Below are positions 3,518 to 18,400 of a DNA stretch of 18,767 nt, piece after piece; position 1 is the stretch's first letter, and every line of letters begins with the position of its first letter. Position numbers and translations under genes: made by a program. Source of the stretch: Alphaproteobacteria bacterium. GTDB taxonomy: Bacteria; Pseudomonadota; Alphaproteobacteria; UBA828. The notes under the pieces were generated by a model that worked only from the letters and a program-made list of their open reading frames with translations, was not told where the DNA came from and did no database searches. The DNA is taken from the NCBI GenBank assembly GCA_022826345.1, contig JAJDVB010000030.1, forward strand, positions 1 through 18,767. Reading direction: 5' to 3'.

Positions 3518-4291
3518 ATGCCCGCAACGCCTCGCCGGGTCGGCCTCTTCGTGACGTGCCTCGTCGACCTGTTCCGGCCGACGGTGGGCTTCGCCGCGGC
3601 GACGCTGCTGGAGCGCGCTGGCTGCGAGGTGGTGGTGCCGAAGGCGCAGGTCTGCTGCGGCCAACCCGCCTACAACTCGGGCGACCGCGCCGATACCAAG
3701 GCGATCGCGCGCAACGTGATCGAGGCTTTTGAGCCCTTCGATGCCACAGTCGCGCCGTCGGGCTCCTGCGCCGGCATGATCAAGCGCCACTACCCGGCGC
3801 TCTTCGCTGGCGATGCTCACTGGGAGCCGCGCGCTCAGCGTCTCGCCGAGCGCACCTCCGAGCTGGTCTCGTTCCTGACCGATCAGTGCGGCGTCGACTC
3901 CGTGGACGCGCGCCATGAGGGAACCGTCGCCTACCACGACTCCTGTTCTAGCCTGCGCGAGCTCGGGGTCCGGGCGCAGCCGCGGCGTCTGCTCGCGAGC
4001 GTCGATGGACTGGAGCTGGCGGAGCTCTCGGCGCCCGATGTCTGCTGCGGCTTCGGCGGAACCTTCTGCGTCAAGTATCCCGACATCTCGGGCCGCATGG
4101 TGGCGGACAAGGCGAAGGACATCGCCGCGACCGGTGCGGACACGGTGCTCGCCGGCGACATGGGCTGCCTGCTCAACATCGCAGGCCGGCTGAGCCGCGA
4201 AGGCTCAAGCGTGAAGGCCCGTCACGTCGCCGAGGTGCTGGCAGGCATGGACGACCGCCCGGCCATCGGCGAGCCGGCGCGGGGCCGCTGA
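3518..4291 (+). CDS. lutA: L-lactate oxidation complex subunit LutA (CCG-domain iron-sulfur protein)
   Basis: LutA is one of three subunits of the flavin-independent L-lactate oxidation complex (LutABC/LldEFG) that converts L-lactate to pyruvate. The 257-residue protein has two cysteine-rich CCG domains. The first holds Cys14 (VTCLVDLFRP), Cys46-Cys47 (VCCGQPAYNSGD) and Cys84 (GSCAGM). The second holds Cys143 (YHDSCSSLRELG), Cys176-Cys177 (DVCCGFGG), Cys184 and Cys217 (GDMGCLLN). CCG domains are known to bind a noncubane [4Fe-4S] cluster in heterodisulfide reductases. All expected cysteines are present, so it should be functional. ATG at 3518 is the natural start 36 nt after mltA; no strong Shine-Dalgarno is visible. 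It is the first gene of the lut operon. Confidence 0.94.
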   Translation: MPATPRRVGLFVTCLVDLFRPTVGFAAATLLERAGCEVVVPKAQVCCGQPAYNSGDRADTKAIARNVIEAFEPFDATVAPSGSCAGMIKRHYPALFAGDAHWEPRAQRLAERTSELVSFLTDQCGVDSVDARHEGTVAYHDSCSSLRELGVRAQPRRLLASVDGLELAELSAPDVCCGFGGTFCVKYPDISGRMVADKAKDIAATGADTVLAGDMGCLLNIAGRLSREGSSVKARHVAEVLAGMDDRPAIGEPARGR

Positions 4292-4314
4292 GGGCCGCGC
4301 GAGGGCGCCGGGCC

Positions 4315-5733
4315 GTGGACGCCACCAGCCGCACCTTCGTCGCCAACGCGCGCGCCGGGCTGCAGGACGCCGATCTGCAGACCTCGCTCGCGCGCTTCCA
4401 GGGCGGCTTTCAGGTCAAGCGGGTCGAGGCAGCCAAGCGCCTGCCGGAGTTCGAGGCGCTGCGCGACGAGGCGCGCGCCATCAAGGACCATACGCTGGCG
4501 CACCTCGACCACTACCTGGAGCGCTACGAGGAGCAGGTGATGGCGGCGGGCGGGACCGTCCACTGGTGCCAGACGCCGGAGGAGGCGCGGCAGGTCATCC
4601 TCGCCCTCTGCCAGGAGGCGGACGCCAAGACGGTGACCAAGAGCAAGTCCATGATCGCCGAGGAGATGGAGCTCAACCCTTTCCTCGAAGAGCATGGCAT
4701 CGCGCCGGTGGAGACCGACCTCGGCGAGTACGTGGTCCAGCTTGCCGAGGAGCGGCCGAGCCACATCATCGCGCCGGCGGTGCACAAGACCCGGGATCAG
4801 GTCGCCGATCTCTTTCACGAGAAGCACACGCCGCTCGGCCGCACCCGCCGGCTCGAGCGCGTCGAAGAGCTGGTGGAGGAGGCGCGCGAGGTGCTGCGCC
4901 CGCGCTATCTCGCGGCCGATGTCGGGATCACCGGCGCGAACTTCCTGATTGCGGAGACAGGCTCTTCCGCCATCGTCACCAACGAGGGCAACGGGGACCT
5001 GACCCAGATCCTGCCGCGCATGCACATCGTGATCGCGACGCTGGAGAAGGTCGTGCCGACCCTGGAGGACGCGACCACGATCATGCGCGTGCTCGCGCGC
5101 TCGGCGACGGGGCAGGAGTTCTCCACTTACACCACCGTTTCGACCGGCCCGCGCCGGCCGGACGATGCCGACGGCCCCGAGGCCTACCACGTGGTGCTGC
5201 TCGATAACGGCCGCTCGCGGATGCTGGGCTCCGAGTTCCGGGAGGTGCTGCGCTGCATCAAGTGCGGCGCCTGCATGAACCACTGCCCGGTCTACGGCAC
5301 GGTGGGCGGCCACGCCTACGGCTGGGTCTATCCGGGGCCGGTGGGTGCGGTGCTGACGCCCAACCTGATCGGCCTCGAAGAGGCGCGCCACCTGCCCAAC
5401 GCATCGAGCTTCTGCGGCCGCTGTGAGGAGGTCTGCCCCATGCGCATCCCGCTGCCGGGGCTGATGCGCAAGCTCAGGGAGCAGGAGTTCGAGCGGCGGT
5501 TGAACCCGGCGGCTATCCGCACCGGGATCGGCGCCTGGGCCTGGCTCGCCCGGCGGCCCGCGCTTTATCGCTGCTTGACCGGCTTCGGCATCCGCGTGCT
5601 GGGCGCGATGGGCCGGCGGCGCGGGCGCTTCACGCGGCTGCCGCTCGCTGGCGGCTGGACCGCGGCGCGCGACCTGCCTGCGCCCGAGGGGGCGACCTTC
5701 CACGCGCTCTGGCGCAAGGGGCGGCGGGCATGA
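4315..5733 (+). CDS. lutB: L-lactate oxidation complex subunit LutB (LUD domain and ferredoxin domain)
   Basis: LutB is the iron-sulfur electron-transfer subunit of the LutABC lactate oxidation complex. Its 472 residues comprise an N-terminal LUD domain (about 60-300; TVTKSKSMIAEEMELNPFLE, GITGANFLIAETGSSAIVTN, NEGNGDLTQILPR) and a double [4Fe-4S] ferredoxin-like domain. The cysteines are 314, 317, 320 and 324 (CIKCGACMNHCP) and 367, 370 and 374 (CGRCEEVCPMRIP). The C-terminal 90 residues are the usual LutB tail. The start is GTG at 4315, which gives the N-terminus seen in homologues and lies 23 nt after lutA; only a weak GAGGG precedes it. The last codon overlaps lutC as ATGA. Confidence 0.95.
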   Translation: MDATSRTFVANARAGLQDADLQTSLARFQGGFQVKRVEAAKRLPEFEALRDEARAIKDHTLAHLDHYLERYEEQVMAAGGTVHWCQTPEEARQVILALCQEADAKTVTKSKSMIAEEMELNPFLEEHGIAPVETDLGEYVVQLAEERPSHIIAPAVHKTRDQVADLFHEKHTPLGRTRRLERVEELVEEAREVLRPRYLAADVGITGANFLIAETGSSAIVTNEGNGDLTQILPRMHIVIATLEKVVPTLEDATTIMRVLARSATGQEFSTYTTVSTGPRRPDDADGPEAYHVVLLDNGRSRMLGSEFREVLRCIKCGACMNHCPVYGTVGGHAYGWVYPGPVGAVLTPNLIGLEEARHLPNASSFCGRCEEVCPMRIPLPGLMRKLREQEFERRLNPAAIRTGIGAWAWLARRPALYRCLTGFGIRVLGAMGRRRGRFTRLPLAGGWTAARDLPAPEGATFHALWRKGRRA

Positions 5734-6434
5734 GCGCGGCAGGCGGACGCGACGCCATCCTTGGCTCGATCCGCCGTTCGCTTGGCCGCGGGCCGCTGGA
5801 CGAGGCGGAGCGCGCCGCGCTCGACGAGCGTATGGCGAAGCCCAAGCCCAACCTCTTGCCTGCGCGCACCGATATTTCCCAGGACGAGAGAGTCGAACTT
5901 TTCGCCTCGATGGCGGAGGCGGTGTTCGCGACCGTGGATCGCGTCTCCGGTGTCGGCGCGGTGCCGGGCGCGGTCGCCGACTACCTGGCGCAGCACAACC
6001 TGCCGCCCGCGCTGGTGATGGCGCCCGATTCCGCGCTCGACGTCTATCCCTGGGGCGAGCGCCCCATGCTCGCGATCCGCCGGGGTCGGGCGGAGGAGGC
6101 CGACCGGGTCGGCGTGACCGGGGCCGTGATGGGCTTCGCCGAGACCGGCACCTTGATGATGGCCTCCGGTCCGGACCATCCCTCCACGCTCAACTTCCTG
6201 CCCGAGACTCACATCGTGGTGCTGCCGGCGGAGAAGATCGGCGGCGCCTACGAGGAGGGCTGGGTGCATCTGAGGGCCGAAGGGGGGTCGGATGCAGACG
6301 GTGGCTTCATGCCGCGCACGGTCAACCTCGTCACGGGCCCGTCGCGCACCGCCGACATCGAGCAGACTATCGCGCTCGGCGCCCACGGGCCGCGCCGGCT
6401 GCATATCGTCATCGTGGAAGGCGGCGAGTCATGA
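5730..6434 (+). CDS. lutC: L-lactate oxidation complex subunit LutC (LUD domain protein)
   Basis: LutC is the third subunit of the LutABC lactate oxidation complex. The 234-residue protein is a single LUD domain. The characteristic core begins near residue 134 with MGFAETGTLMMASGPDHPS, followed by LNFLPETHIVVLPAEKI. The N-terminal region with ILGSIRRSLGRGP matches the usual opening of LutC. The ATG at 5730 overlaps the lutB TGA by 4 nt, and its own TGA overlaps the Smr gene ATG in the same way, so lutB-lutC-Smr are translationally coupled. No LutR- or LldR-type regulator is adjacent, and no separate promoter is evident. Confidence 0.94.
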   Translation: MSAAGGRDAILGSIRRSLGRGPLDEAERAALDERMAKPKPNLLPARTDISQDERVELFASMAEAVFATVDRVSGVGAVPGAVADYLAQHNLPPALVMAPDSALDVYPWGERPMLAIRRGRAEEADRVGVTGAVMGFAETGTLMMASGPDHPSTLNFLPETHIVVLPAEKIGGAYEEGWVHLRAEGGSDADGGFMPRTVNLVTGPSRTADIEQTIALGAHGPRRLHIVIVEGGES

Positions 6435-7585: not shown

Positions 7586-8014
7586 ATGCGACCGAATATC
7601 CCCGAAGAGACCGGCATACAGCTCGATCAGGGCCGGGCCTCGACCGATGACTTCATCACCCGCACTTATGTGCTGCCGCTGCTCACCGATCCGGCGACGC
7701 GCGAGCGGCTGATCGAGGAGCACCGCAACAACCCGGTCGGCAAGCCCGGCAAGGCCGGCAAGGCCGGCGTCGGCCACAGCCCCGATCTCATCACGGTGAT
7801 CGACAAGCTGCGGCGCGCACCGATGACGGGCAAGTACGTGCGGATCTGCACCAGGCCCCACGAGGAATACCGCATCGGCATCACCTCCGGCGTGCGCGGT
7901 GAGCCGGTCAAGATCCTGGAGGACGAGGCGTATCCGAGCGAGGACGCGTGCGAGCACGCGATCTTCGTGAAGCGCGTGCACGACCTGCTCTCGCTCTACG
8001 GCTACAGCGCGTAG
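7586..8014 (+). CDS. dmfA1: N,N-dimethylformamidase small (alpha) subunit-like protein
   Basis: N,N-dimethylformamidase hydrolyses dimethylformamide to dimethylamine and formate; it is built of a roughly 15-kDa small and an 85-kDa large subunit. This 142-residue protein has the expected size and lies immediately before an unmistakable large subunit. The conserved part is the C-terminal half: GKYVRICTRPHEEYRIG at 82-98, then a linker to SEDACEHAIFVKRVHDLL, which I recognise as the small-subunit pattern. The N-terminal half is helical and charged. A short Lys-Pro-Gly/Lys-Ala-Gly run (52-60) lies in the linker. The small subunit has no catalytic site of its own; it is structural in the characterised enzyme. 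A related gene lies downstream of the large subunit (10475). Confidence 0.82.
   Translation: MRPNIPEETGIQLDQGRASTDDFITRTYVLPLLTDPATRERLIEEHRNNPVGKPGKAGKAGVGHSPDLITVIDKLRRAPMTGKYVRICTRPHEEYRIGITSGVRGEPVKILEDEAYPSEDACEHAIFVKRVHDLLSLYGYSA
7739..7765 (+). repeat. Three tandem 9-bp units inside the small-subunit gene
   Basis: GGCAAGCCC followed by two copies of GGCAAGGCC encodes GKPGKAGKA. The repeat stays in frame and sits in the linker before the conserved HSPDL segment. It is a likely slippage expansion, and its copy number may differ between strains. Confidence 0.6.
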
Positions 8015-8058
8015 ACGCCCCCTCTGAATTCGACGAACACACGGTTGGGAGACACGAC

Positions 8059-10407
8059 ATGCTTCGGATCACCGGATACAGCGACCGCTACTCGATCCAT
8101 CCGGGCGATGACATCACGTTCTATGTGAACTCCGAGAAGGGCGAAGACTACGAGGCCAAGCTCGTCCGCCTGATTCACGGCGACACCAACCCCGACGGGC
8201 CGGGCTACAAGGAAGAAGAAATCGACGCGCCGTTCGACGGCAACCACACGGGGCGCAACCAGAAGATCCACGGCGGCTCCTACGTGATCGTGCCGCACGA
8301 CGAGCGCATGTCCGTGTCGAGCTTCACCGTCCAGGCCTTCATCTTCCCGACGACGCCGACCAAGGGCCGCCAGGGCATCCTGACCAAGTGGGTGAACGAC
8401 ACCGGCTACGGGCTCTTCGTGGACGACGACGGCTGCCTCGCACTCTGCATCGGCGACGGCAACCACGTGCACAAGCTTTCCAGCGGCAAGCCGCTGCTGC
8501 GGAAGGTCTGGTACCTCGCAGCCGCCTCCTACGATGCCGAGACCGGCGCGATCCACCTCTATCAGGAGCCGGTGGTGACATCGGCGAACGGCGGCCTCGG
8601 CATGGCGCTGCTGCATCCGGCCGAGGAGACCACGGCCGAGGTCTCGGACACCTGCAGCACCGGACCCGGCGCCAACGACGCGCCCTTCCTCATGGCGGCA
8701 TCGACGAAGGTCTCGGATTCGGGCCGCTCGATCTGCGGCGCGCACTACAAGGAGGCGCTGACACCCGTTGGGCTGCCGGAGCAGTGCGACACCTACAACG
8801 GCAAGATCGACCGGCCCCGGCTCACCGCCGCCGCGCTCGGCAAGCACGAGATCGATGCATTGGCGCGCGGCTTCAAGGGCTGCCCGGCGGACTTGCGCCG
8901 CATTGTGGTCGGCGCCTGGGACTTCCAGGCCAACATCACCAAGAACATCTCGTCCACCTATATCATCGACACCTCGCCGAATGTGCTGAACGGCCACGCC
9001 ATCAACCTGCCGGCGCGCGGCATGACCGGCTACAACTGGACCGCCGACGAGATCGTCTACCACCACGCGCCGGAGGAGTACGGCGCGATCCACTTCCACG
9101 ACGACGATATCGACGACGCCAGGTGGGACGCGGACTTCGGCTTCACCGCGCCCGAGGGGCTGAAGAGCGGCTTCTACGCTGCGCGGCTCCGCATCGGCGG
9201 CGAGGAATCGTCGGCGACCGAGGACTACATCCCCTTCGTGGTGCGGCCGCCCAAGGACCGGCCCTCGGCAAAGGTCGCGGTGATCATCCCGACCAACAGC
9301 TACCTCGCGTACTCCAACGACAACCTGGCGACCAACTCGGTGGTGGCGCAACTGCTCGCCGGCAAGGTGCCGCTGATGCAGGCCTCCGACCTCTACCTCA
9401 ACGAGCATCGCGAGTACGGGCTCTCGACCTACTCGCTGCATTCGGACGGGAGCGGCGTCTGCTACTCGTCGAGGCTCCGGCCGATCCTCAACATGCGCCC
9501 CAAATACCGGCACTGGCTCTCGCCCTCGCTCTGGCAGCTCAACGGCGACCTGCACCTGACCGACTGGCTGGAGGCCGTGGGCTTCGACTACGACCTGCAC
9601 ACCGACGAAGACCTGGACCGCGAGGGCGTCGCGCTCTTGAACCAGTACCGCGTGGTGCTGACCGGCTCGCATCCGGAGTACTCGTCCGAGGCCATGATCG
9701 ACGCCTACGAGGCCTACCAGCACCAGGGCGGCCGCTGGCTCTACCTCGGCGCCGACGGGTTCTATTGGTGCAGCCAGTATCACCCCGACAACGGCAACAT
9801 CATCGAGGTGCGCAAGGGCGAGGCCGGGACGCGCGCATGGACCGCCAATCCCGGCGAGTACAACAACGCCTTCGACGGCAAGTTCGGCGGCATGTGGCGG
9901 GCGCGGGGGCGCATTCCGAGCAAGGTCTGCGGACTCACCTTCACGGCCTACGGCTTCGACGTGTCGTCCTACTACCGGCGCGAGGCCGACAGCTTCCGCT
10001 CCGAGTGCGAATGGATCTTCGAAGGCATCGGCGATGACGAGATCATCGGCGACTTCGGCCTGGTGGGCGGCGGCGCCGCGGGGCTCGAGCTCGACCGGTA
10101 CGACCTCGAGTTCGGCACGCCGCACCACGGTTATCTGCTCGCCCGCTCCGAGGGCCACACCGACCTGATGCTCCAGGTCAACGAGGAGATCCACTTCGCC
10201 TGCCGCGGCTACTACGGCGGCGGCCACGAGAACCCGCAAATCCGGGCCGACATGATCTATTACAAGACGCCGAATGATGGCGCGGTGTTCGGGCCCGGCT
10301 CGCTGGTCTGGTGCGGTAGCCTTTCGCACAACAACTACAACAACAACGTCTCCAAGATCATGGAGAACGTGATCAACGGCTTCCTCAAGGACGGACCGCT
10401 GCCCTGA
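8059..10407 (+). CDS. dmfA2: N,N-dimethylformamidase large (beta) subunit-like amidohydrolase
   Basis: This is the catalytic subunit of an N,N-dimethylformamidase-type enzyme (782 residues; characterised Paracoccus/Alcaligenes subunits are about 762). An N-terminal beta region (1-80) and a LamG/concanavalin-like domain (about 85-275) precede the C-terminal catalytic domain (about 395-775), which has a glutamine-amidotransferase-like fold. The Paracoccus enzyme binds one iron through two tyrosines and a glutamate (reported as Tyr399, Tyr440, Glu521). With an offset of about 19, the counterparts here are most likely Tyr418 (PTNSYLAYSN), Tyr458 (STYSLHSDG) and Glu540 (GSHPEYSSEAM). The frame opens upstream, but the ATG at 8059 has a GGGAG 7 nt before it and gives the standard N-terminus. 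True substrate may be DMF or another small N-substituted amide. Confidence 0.92.
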   Translation: MLRITGYSDRYSIHPGDDITFYVNSEKGEDYEAKLVRLIHGDTNPDGPGYKEEEIDAPFDGNHTGRNQKIHGGSYVIVPHDERMSVSSFTVQAFIFPTTPTKGRQGILTKWVNDTGYGLFVDDDGCLALCIGDGNHVHKLSSGKPLLRKVWYLAAASYDAETGAIHLYQEPVVTSANGGLGMALLHPAEETTAEVSDTCSTGPGANDAPFLMAASTKVSDSGRSICGAHYKEALTPVGLPEQCDTYNGKIDRPRLTAAALGKHEIDALARGFKGCPADLRRIVVGAWDFQANITKNISSTYIIDTSPNVLNGHAINLPARGMTGYNWTADEIVYHHAPEEYGAIHFHDDDIDDARWDADFGFTAPEGLKSGFYAARLRIGGEESSATEDYIPFVVRPPKDRPSAKVAVIIPTNSYLAYSNDNLATNSVVAQLLAGKVPLMQASDLYLNEHREYGLSTYSLHSDGSGVCYSSRLRPILNMRPKYRHWLSPSLWQLNGDLHLTDWLEAVGFDYDLHTDEDLDREGVALLNQYRVVLTGSHPEYSSEAMIDAYEAYQHQGGRWLYLGADGFYWCSQYHPDNGNIIEVRKGEAGTRAWTANPGEYNNAFDGKFGGMWRARGRIPSKVCGLTFTAYGFDVSSYYRREADSFRSECEWIFEGIGDDEIIGDFGLVGGGAAGLELDRYDLEFGTPHHGYLLARSEGHTDLMLQVNEEIHFACRGYYGGGHENPQIRADMIYYKTPNDGAVFGPGSLVWCGSLSHNNYNNNVSKIMENVINGFLKDGPLP

Positions 10408-10428
10408 CCCGGAAGAGGCGACGCAAGC

Positions 10429-10448
10429 GGCGGCTGCGCAAGGCCGCC
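10429..10448 (+). other. Stem-loop between the large subunit and the second small-subunit-like gene
   Basis: GGCGGC (10429-10434) and GCCGCC (10443-10448) can pair around an 8-nt loop in the 67-nt gap. No T-run follows, so it is not a classical terminator. It could be an mRNA processing or stability element, or chance in G+C-rich DNA. Confidence 0.3.
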
Positions 10449-10474
10449 TCAGCCTGGGCGGAGAGAGTCTGCGG

Positions 10475-10861
10475 ATGAGCATTTCGGACAAGACCCGCAG
10501 CTCTCTCATGCCCATGATCATGCCCCCGCCGGGCAAGAAGATGCTGCCGACGCGCGCGCAGGCGACCGCGCTGGAGGAGGCGCTGCTCGGCGACCTCGAC
10601 CCCGACAAGCTCAACGATCTCTCCGAGGTGCTGTTCGCGCTGAACGCGCACAAGCTCGGGCCGATCCCCGGCTTCTACGTCGTGGTCTGCACCAAGCCGG
10701 ACGAGGAGTGGTGCGTGGGCCAGCTTGCGGCGGACCGCGCCAAGCCGCTGATCATGTTCGAGGACATGCGCTTCGATAAGCCGGAGGCGGCGCTGGCCGC
10801 CGCCGAGAAGCTCAAGGCCGAGGACGACGCCGCAGGCCGAAGCCCCATCGTCACGGGCTGA
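10475..10861 (+). CDS. Second dimethylformamidase small-subunit-like protein
   Basis: I do not know a named family for this 128-residue protein, but it is visibly related to the small subunit at 7586. GFYVVVCTKPDEEWCVG (66-82) aligns without gaps to GKYVRICTRPHEEYRIG (82-98), with 9 identities in 17. The following 15 positions still align to a shared Pro and an ED pair. The N-terminal half differs: a Met/Pro-rich start (MPMIMPPPGKKMLP) and an acidic helix (EEALLGDLDPDKLNDLSEVL). A GGAGAG at 10460-10465 lies 9 nt before the ATG. It is 67 nt downstream of the large subunit and almost certainly co-transcribed. It could be an alternative structural subunit, an assembly factor or a regulator. The last 36 bases, including the stop, are duplicated at 11267-11302. 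Confidence 0.8.
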   Translation: MSISDKTRSSLMPMIMPPPGKKMLPTRAQATALEEALLGDLDPDKLNDLSEVLFALNAHKLGPIPGFYVVVCTKPDEEWCVGQLAADRAKPLIMFEDMRFDKPEAALAAAEKLKAEDDAAGRSPIVTG

Positions 10862-10970: not shown

Positions 10971-11177
10971 TCATGCGGCGGCGAAGGTGATCCTGATCGG
11001 CTCGGCAGGCTGCTCTCCCGCTTCGATCCTTTCCGCCAGGACCCGGAGTGCCAGGGCCTCGACCCTGGCGATCGCCTCGTCCCGGTTCGTCCCATACGAC
11101 ATTGCACCCGGGATCTCGGGGATCTCGGCAATCCAGCGCCCGTCTTCTTCCCGCTCGACCTCTATCGTGAACTGCAT
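10971..11177 (-). CDS. hicB: HicB-family antitoxin-like protein, apparently solitary
   Basis: HicB proteins neutralise the HicA mRNA interferase and often repress their own operon. This 68-residue product is a minimal HicB partial-RNase-H fold: FTIEVEREEDGRWIAEIPEIPG at the N-terminus, then GAMSYGTNRDEAIARVEALALRVLAERIEAGE. A longer frame starts at 11258, but its extra 27 residues are Arg/Ala-rich and unrelated to HicB; the ATG at 11177 gives the canonical MQFTIEVE start. No HicA-like ORF (60-80 residues with the GSHH motif) is present on either side, and no DNA-binding domain is attached. It lies convergent to the 10475 gene and divergent from the 11334 gene, between the two copies of the direct repeat. 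It may be an orphan antitoxin or a partner for a distant toxin. Confidence 0.82.
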   Translation of the reverse strand: MQFTIEVEREEDGRWIAEIPEIPGAMSYGTNRDEAIARVEALALRVLAERIEAGEQPAEPIRITFAAA

Positions 11178-11266
11178 CCGCCTATCGCCCGCTCGAGGAG
11201 CGCCCGCTGCCAATTTCGCGCGCCGCTCTCGAATGCGAGCTTCACCGAGCAAGGGCATGTTGTCCA

Positions 11267-17125: not shown

Positions 17126-18400
17126 ATGAGACGTCGAGACTTCTTGAAGAAATCCGGTATCGCACTCGGTGCCGCCGGGCTGACCACGTTCCCGCACGTC
17201 TGGGTGAAGGACTATCAGTTTGCCTGGGCCGACGACGACGAGATCGAGGTCGGCGTTCTTTATTCGCTGACCGGTACGACGGCCATCGTCGAGAAGCAGT
17301 TGAGCAAAGTCACCGAGATGGCCATCGATCAGATCAATGCCAACGGTGGCGTGCTCGGCAAGAAGGTGGTGCCGATCATCGAGGACCCGGCCTCCGACCC
17401 GCGCACCTTCAACGAGAAGGCCAACAAGCTCGTGGTGCGGGACCGGGTGCCGTCGGTCTTCGGCTCCTACACCTCGGCGAGCCGCAAGGCAGCGCTGCCG
17501 GTGTTCGAGAAGCGCAAGAACCTGTACTGGTATCCCACGTTCTACGAAGGGTTCGAGTGCTCGAAGAACGTCATTTACACGGGCGCCGTTCCCAACCAGC
17601 AGCAGGAGAACTTCGTCCCCTGGATCACGAAGCAGGGCTACAACAAGTTCTTCATCGTCGGGTCGAATTACATCTACCCGCGTGAGATGGCCAAGGTCTG
17701 CAAGATCCTGGTGGAGAGAGAAGGCGGTTCCTGGGTGGCCGACGAGTACCTCGAGCTCGGTCATACCGAATGGGGCTCCATGGTCAACAAGATGAAGACC
17801 ATGTGGGAAGCCGGCGAGTGCGACTGCGTCTATTCCAACGTCGTCGGCGATTCGATCGTTGCCTTCCGCCGCGAGTTCATCAACCAGGGTCTGAGCTACG
17901 ACAAGTTCCCAATCTTTGCCACCGTGTGCTCGGAAATTGAGGTGCAGGCGATGGGGGCAGACTATGCCGCAGGCAGCGTCACGTCCTTCCCGTATTTCCA
18001 GTCGGTGAGCAACCCGGCGAACGAGAAGTTCGTGGAAGACGTGAAGAGCACGATGGGTGGCGATACCGTCACCTATCACGCCATGGAATGCGCTTATTTC
18101 CAGGTGTTCCTGTGGGCGCAGTCGGTGGAGAAGGCGGGCGAGGTCGATCCTCTCTCGGTTCGCGAAGCGTCCAAGGGACAAGAGGTCGATGCGCCGGAAG
18201 GGCGTGTGAGAATCGAGCCCGAAAACCTGCACTGCTGGCTGACGCCGCGTATCGGGGTGTGGGGCTCCGACGGTCAGGCCGAGATCGTCGACGAGTACGC
18301 GGAGCCACTGATGCCGCTTCCTTATTCGGCATACGGCGAAGCGCCCGACAATCTCTTCTGCACGCAGGCGGGCCTGGATTCCAGCAAGCTCAAGACCTAA
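17126..18400 (+). CDS. Urea/short-chain amide ABC transporter binding protein (UrtA/FmdD family), Tat-exported
   Basis: This 424-residue periplasmic type I binding protein belongs to the UrtA/FmdD/AmiC group, whose members bind urea or short-chain amides such as formamide. The leader RRRDFLKK plus a weakly hydrophobic stretch to about Ala35 (FAWA) is a twin-arginine signal, implying export in folded form. The body shows the family pattern: VGVLYSLTGTTAIVEK, VFGSYTSASRKAALPVFEK, TGAVPNQQQENFVPW, YIYPREMAKV, NVVGDSIVAFRREFI and DAPEGRVRIEPENLH. The extended ending with PLPYSAYGE resembles the FmdD-like amide binders more than compact UrtA, but sequence reading alone cannot decide the ligand. 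The ribosome site at 17115 fixes the start. A LivH/UrtB-type permease gene follows. Confidence 0.9.
   Translation: MRRRDFLKKSGIALGAAGLTTFPHVWVKDYQFAWADDDEIEVGVLYSLTGTTAIVEKQLSKVTEMAIDQINANGGVLGKKVVPIIEDPASDPRTFNEKANKLVVRDRVPSVFGSYTSASRKAALPVFEKRKNLYWYPTFYEGFECSKNVIYTGAVPNQQQENFVPWITKQGYNKFFIVGSNYIYPREMAKVCKILVEREGGSWVADEYLELGHTEWGSMVNKMKTMWEAGECDCVYSNVVGDSIVAFRREFINQGLSYDKFPIFATVCSEIEVQAMGADYAAGSVTSFPYFQSVSNPANEKFVEDVKSTMGGDTVTYHAMECAYFQVFLWAQSVEKAGEVDPLSVREASKGQEVDAPEGRVRIEPENLHCWLTPRIGVWGSDGQAEIVDEYAEPLMPLPYSAYGEAPDNLFCTQAGLDSSKLKT

Follow-up and report, generated by a model that had tools for sequence, protein, structure and literature searches.

The N,N-dimethylformamidase (DMFase) of Paracoccus sp. 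strain DMF is built of two kinds of chain, arranged as alpha2beta2 or as a dimer of that unit; its iron ligands are Tyr399, Tyr440 and Glu521, His519 is essential, and Asn547 lies in the active site (PMC7686228, accessible part). According to the same part of that paper, the large subunit alone is inactive, and the small subunit is said to stabilise and is suggested to take part in substrate entry (PMC7686228). The DmfA1-DmfA2 pair encoded on pAMI2 of Paracoccus aminophilus and the related one on pAMI5 are two-subunit members of the family to which the locus described below belongs, and the accessible text of PMC4543880 establishes no link between the pAMI5 pair and the use of DMF. A DMFase has also been listed in the flotillin-associated rhodopsin (FAR) cluster of SAR11, HIMB59 and Pseudothioglobus, together with an "inner membrane translocator", and three co-transcribed genes are reported as conserved in Pseudothioglobus in the accessible part of that work (PMC10308929). 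In a search that mostly covered literature outside subscription, the accessible parts of PMC7686228, PMC10308929 and PMC4543880 described no third DMFase subunit.

The window analysed here is the whole stretch of 18,767 nucleotides from contig JAJDVB010000030.1 of an alphaproteobacterium of the UBA828 lineage. It carries three consecutive genes, S, L and T (Table 1), and all three open reading frames were found where the first-pass annotation had placed them. The L coding sequence is counted from the ATG at 8059, the mechanical ORF beginning upstream of that codon, and 67 bases separate the stop of L from the start of T. The two chains of the Paracoccus enzyme (6lvb) are homologous to L and S, with the iron ligands and the essential His in common; that enzyme is nevertheless two-chain, whereas the window adds the third gene T and has Asp in place of Asn547. 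A locus on pAMI5 (L153), presumably the second Paracoccus aminophilus pair, has no T downstream.

Table 1. The trio in the window and the L codons aligned with active-site residues of Paracoccus DMFase (equivalences from the alignment to 6lvb_A and PMC7686228).
Feature	Coordinates	Strand	Description
S	7586..8014	+	small subunit, dimethylformamidase-family amidase, 142 aa
L	8059..10407	+	large catalytic subunit, 782 aa
T	10475..10861	+	paralogue of small subunit, 128 aa
L Tyr418 codon	9310..9312	+	iron ligand Tyr399
L Tyr458 codon	9430..9432	+	iron ligand Tyr440
L His538 codon	9670..9672	+	essential His519
L Glu540 codon	9676..9678	+	iron ligand Glu521
L Asp566 codon	9754..9756	+	substituted; site of active-site Asn547

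In a Pfam scan, L matched the PF20254 DMFA2_C domain at 312.3 bits (cut-off 27), and its residues 3-782 aligned with the Paracoccus DMFase large subunit 6lvb_A at 635 bits (E 1.9e-189). The two-Tyr, one-Glu iron site and the essential His are present in the window L (Y418, Y458, E540 and H538), and the four corresponding columns were invariant across 67 L rows with the sole exception of L060, which reads X at both Tyr positions. On the strength of the domain, the full-length match and the iron ligands, the earlier label "dimethylformamidase-type" proved right for family and active site. Since the iron ligands and the His are conserved, L would be expected to perform iron-dependent amide hydrolysis. 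Missing from the window L is the active-site Asn, replaced by Asp566 at a position that varies between N and D within the family: the column holds 21 D and 17 N in the 38 rows with T (T+) and 4 D and 25 N in the 29 rows labelled T-. The change may hint at a different chemistry or substrate, but no more can be read from it. The column of pocket residue Phe693 reads 36 F and 2 Y in the 38 T+ rows and is mixed in the T- rows. Stretches of L that are specific to T+ rows include positions 179-191, 239, 421-428, 689 and 716-720. Nothing in the analysis supports DMF as the substrate of the window enzyme. N-acetyl-(R)-beta-phenylalanine acylase (8huy) is also homologous to L over most of its length (433 bits), but is more distant than DMFase, and S matched no chain of it at E<=10.

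The sole solved chain matching S at that threshold was the DMFase small subunit 6lvb_B, aligned over S residues 41-134 (phmmer, E 1.5e-4). Scans of S and T against local Pfam and NCBIfam libraries gave no match for either protein; among precomputed Pfam labels, PF26354.1 was carried by all 120 listed relatives of S (467 found at E<=0.01) and by 36 of 39 relatives of T. The first-pass annotation had proposed T as a paralogue of S from a 17-residue ungapped match, the nine identities of which we confirmed. BLASTP aligned the two proteins at 39.7 bits (E 9e-10, 21% identity over 94 residues), and their Smith-Waterman score of 89 was reached by none of 2000 shuffles (mean 26.9, sd 4.6, maximum 60). 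The two families were matched by hhalign with a probability of 96% (E 1.9e-9, 64 columns). Searched with filters off (E<10, Z=1000), the S model retrieved 37/37 T rows with a best E of 1.5e-7, and the T model 120/120 S rows with a best E of 1e-10. Chance likeness is ruled out by the BLASTP, shuffle and hhalign results, and together with the T clade described below they bear out the paralogy.

Structure prediction gave T a low-confidence N-terminal arm (about residues 1-30), two helices, a three-stranded meander and a C-terminal helix. The modelled meander and C-helix may correspond to a core of the solved small-subunit fold, in a comparison made without an S model as control, which gives weaker evidence of kinship than the sequences do; querying the solved structures with a T profile returned nothing useful. 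Two motifs, both chosen after the alignments had been inspected, set T apart from near S: the C-helix motif HxxFx[KR]R was found in 0/38 T, 39/42 near S and 4/15 distant S, and the N-helix motif EHxxNP in 0/38, 27/42 and 0/15, respectively. As distant S mostly lack both, the motifs do not define the family. T has one conserved Cys, Cys80, which is invariant in 26 aligned T rows.

The distribution of T was determined by scanning one genome per species with the T alignment, which yielded 89 relatives, of which 80 loci were kept, all retrieved by T alone. These loci contain 82 T genes, and every one lies directly downstream of L, although these loci cannot be taken as independent: 28 records (L070-L097) give an identical match with an identical score, and one contig carries two copies, L054 and L058. 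The order was S-L-T in 65 cases and L-T-S in 11; in the other six, the contig begins within L, so that an upstream S cannot be judged. S accompanied all 76 T genes with readable surroundings, and in no case did T occur instead of S. Conservation of the three-gene set in relatives, on which the earlier proposal depended, is thus confirmed. T is carried by kin of the window, by marine alphaproteobacterial single-cell genomes and MAGs (five of these records being titled Pelagibacterales or Candidatus Pelagibacter), and by gammaproteobacteria; three records are titled SUP05 or Thioglobus. The trio therefore recurs in other water-dwelling bacteria, including relatives of SAR11 and SUP05. Among 191 relatives, 18 had a T match at E<=0.001, and ten of these matches were strong (E below 1e-17). 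A survey of 385 genomes of the class likewise gave 18 with a T match, six over 120 bits and the rest at 20-50 bits, the latter probably being S genes. With so few genomes giving a strong match, T is rare and patchy.

Two Aminobacter plasmids also carry the trio. On that of Aminobacter niigataensis DMFA1, flotillin, S, L and T are followed in this order by a branched-chain-type ABC transporter; a literature search for this strain found no publication. On pcAMD1 of the metformin-degrading strain MD1 the order is S, L, T, and the string "formamid" is absent from the main text of the metformin paper on that strain. Two gammaproteobacterial MAGs (L029 and L039) carry the complete trio twice in tandem, S-L-T-S-L-T. 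Three records titled Klebsiella pneumoniae MAG (L036, L037 and L046) contain the gene set, and two of them, L036 and L037, group in trees with MAGs titled Gammaproteobacteria (L029, L039, L044 and L049); the Klebsiella pneumoniae titles may therefore be wrong.

To place T on the history of L, a tree was built by a quick method under a simple model after merging rows of at least 93% identity (130 to 67) and dropping L110 and L111, which left 65 rows. Rows were labelled T- when the model found no T within 700 bases downstream and at least 600 bases of contig remained; a downstream position was required because the T model, when iterated, drifts and retrieves distant S genes lying upstream as well. 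All 38 T+ rows fell inside one clade of 44 with a support of 100, no T being found for the other six members. In the 21 rows outside this clade an upstream small gene or none was detected, and T lay downstream in 0/21, so that T is ruled out as a trait of the whole family. In a tree of S and T (111 columns; two mislabelled rows taken out and two identical S pairs kept), the T rows formed one clade, supported at 100/100 and separate from every S row. A duplication specific to the window is ruled out as the origin of T, which is common to its relatives and forms a single clade. One gain of T followed by several losses would fit the L tree and the T clade; taken alone, the L tree needs two changes and does not distinguish gain from loss.

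Compared with the window in five chosen relatives, T had dN/dS values of 0.026, 0.061, 0.095, 0.115 and 0.255, against 0.081-0.210 for S and 0.058-0.115 for L in the same comparisons. T is under purifying selection. From the stop of L to the first in-frame ATG or GTG of T, the distance was between -4 and +5 bases in 54/82 cases, with gaps of -4, -1 and +3 bases in 8, 10 and 27 of the 82, which suggests that L and T may be translationally coupled.

Kin of the window have several L paralogues per genome, with nine matches each in G005 and G008, and only part of the lower-scoring L matches became loci. T accompanies each of the ten L matches that exceed 1390 bits. Among L133-L151, 18 of 19 loci extend past the stop of L and T is downstream in none of the 18, L148 being cut. 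One paralogous locus (L155, G005:C153, 1810-7162) consists of S, a tandem pair of large-subunit genes (68% and 66% identity to the window L) and an ABC substrate-binding protein; no T was found there. In L131 (G014) and L135 (G012), L contains one in-frame stop codon, TAA and TGA, respectively, reflecting either sequencing error or decay.

Flotillin was encoded within the fetched flank of 13/80 T loci, in four of them together with rhodopsin. Rhodopsin, flotillin, L, T, S is the gene order in L048, L050, L051 and L058. Four loci titled Pelagibacter or Pelagibacterales (L052, L059, L063 and L067) have flotillin upstream of S-L-T, right at the limit of the fetched flank, so that rhodopsin was not reached. 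The flotillin and rhodopsin beside the trio in some marine loci match the FAR gene set, as far as the accessible part of PMC10308929 gives it, and S and T are not described as subunits in that part. The FAR cluster is flotillin-linked, whereas 9/10 T-bearing kin genomes of the window gave no flotillin over the cut-off, one of them having a match below it; with 13/80 loci and 1/10 kin genomes over the cut-off, a constant link to flotillin is ruled out as a rule. Some sources label S-type proteins "inner-membrane translocator" or permease, and because one such protein (P0068) bears the former name, the "inner membrane translocator" gene listed for the FAR cluster may be S. The commonest neighbours in the 80 loci were a sodium:solute symporter (45), a metallo-beta-lactamase-fold hydrolase (44), an alpha/beta hydrolase (43) and a cupin (40), counts that come largely from near-copy records. 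None of these four, nor flotillin, was found in the window, where the neighbours include a dihydropyrimidinase-like amidohydrolase and a urea-type binding protein, which would fit amide or urea compounds.

We consider it probable, judging from sequence, that T is a stable third subunit of a heteromeric Fe(III) amidase and derives from an old small-subunit duplication. S, L and T would together form one such enzyme of the DMFase family, L carrying the essential His and an iron site made up of two Tyr and one Glu, S being the counterpart of the known small subunit, and T now binding L, or L and S, without replacing S. Beside the observed homology, gene order, T clade, selection and iron ligands, we infer that this association is physical, that T occupies a site different from that of S, that it stabilises the complex or shapes the substrate entrance, and that the substrate is a small imported amide. 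With the N-helix motif absent from distant S as well, the separate binding site is a guess.

Three other roles for T were weighed against a stable third subunit. The first-pass annotation had envisaged an alternative or mixed complex, assembly or iron loading, or a tuning of substrate range; its paralogy and conserved three-gene set stand, but the presence of S beside all 76 readable T genes makes T less likely as a stand-in for S. Were T an alternative small subunit, L would pair with either S or T and give two enzyme forms differing in substrate range, for which the homology of T to S and a possibly shared core of meander and C-helix would speak; yet T is never found instead of S, the near-S motifs of both helices occur in 0/38 T, although distant S often lack them too, and we regard this role as quite unlikely. 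An assembly factor or iron-loading helper, binding L briefly and remaining outside the finished enzyme, would agree with a gene immediately after L, with a T protein devoid of the sequence features of near S, and with some close L genes without T, as for a helper that is dispensable or supplied in trans. However, a protein of small-subunit descent might be expected to bind mature L, and the two Aminobacter T proteins lack Cys80, the one conserved Cys; such a helper seems unlikely. That T is an operon neighbour with a separate job, for instance as a regulator or ligand sensor making no contact with the amidase, is very unlikely, given its membership of the small-subunit family and its position next to L in 82/82 cases, while other neighbours vary between backgrounds.

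What is known of the folds and iron site of DMFase comes from an enzyme that degrades a pollutant and whose natural substrates, to our knowledge, are not settled. The retention of T, the presumed third subunit, in marine single-cell genomes, some titled Pelagibacter or SUP05, suggests a natural task for a related enzyme, and the trio is a concrete enzyme candidate for the flotillin-rhodopsin cluster. More tentatively, and in our view with less than even odds, water-dwelling bacteria may possess a three-subunit DMFase branch (L2S2T2 or similar) in which T reshapes the entrance for a natural amide; the trio, and not only rhodopsin, might then be a conserved metabolic core of the SAR11/Pseudothioglobus flotillin cluster, and L-T-S beside flotillin would correspond to the three co-transcribed Pseudothioglobus genes (PMC10308929).

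Other gene associations were seen around T-less pairs and elsewhere in the window. In a sister genome, the S-L pair of L156 (G002:C103) is followed by nitrile hydratase alpha and beta genes, the latter in two pieces, and by accessory genes, which suggests that this branch may act on amides derived from nitriles; at the T-less S-L pairs of L157 and L133, comparable alpha-like and beta-like ORFs were recognised by eye. On the minus strand of the window, 10971-11258 encodes a short HicB-like protein (Pfam 24.6 bits, below the cut-off of 27), and the urea-type ABC transporter binding protein, encoded at 17126-18400, has a twin-arginine signal match. Upstream of the trio, 3518-6434 encodes a cysteine-rich CCG protein, an iron-sulfur LutB-like protein (by eye) and a LUD-domain protein, which would make up a lactate-utilisation-like cluster.
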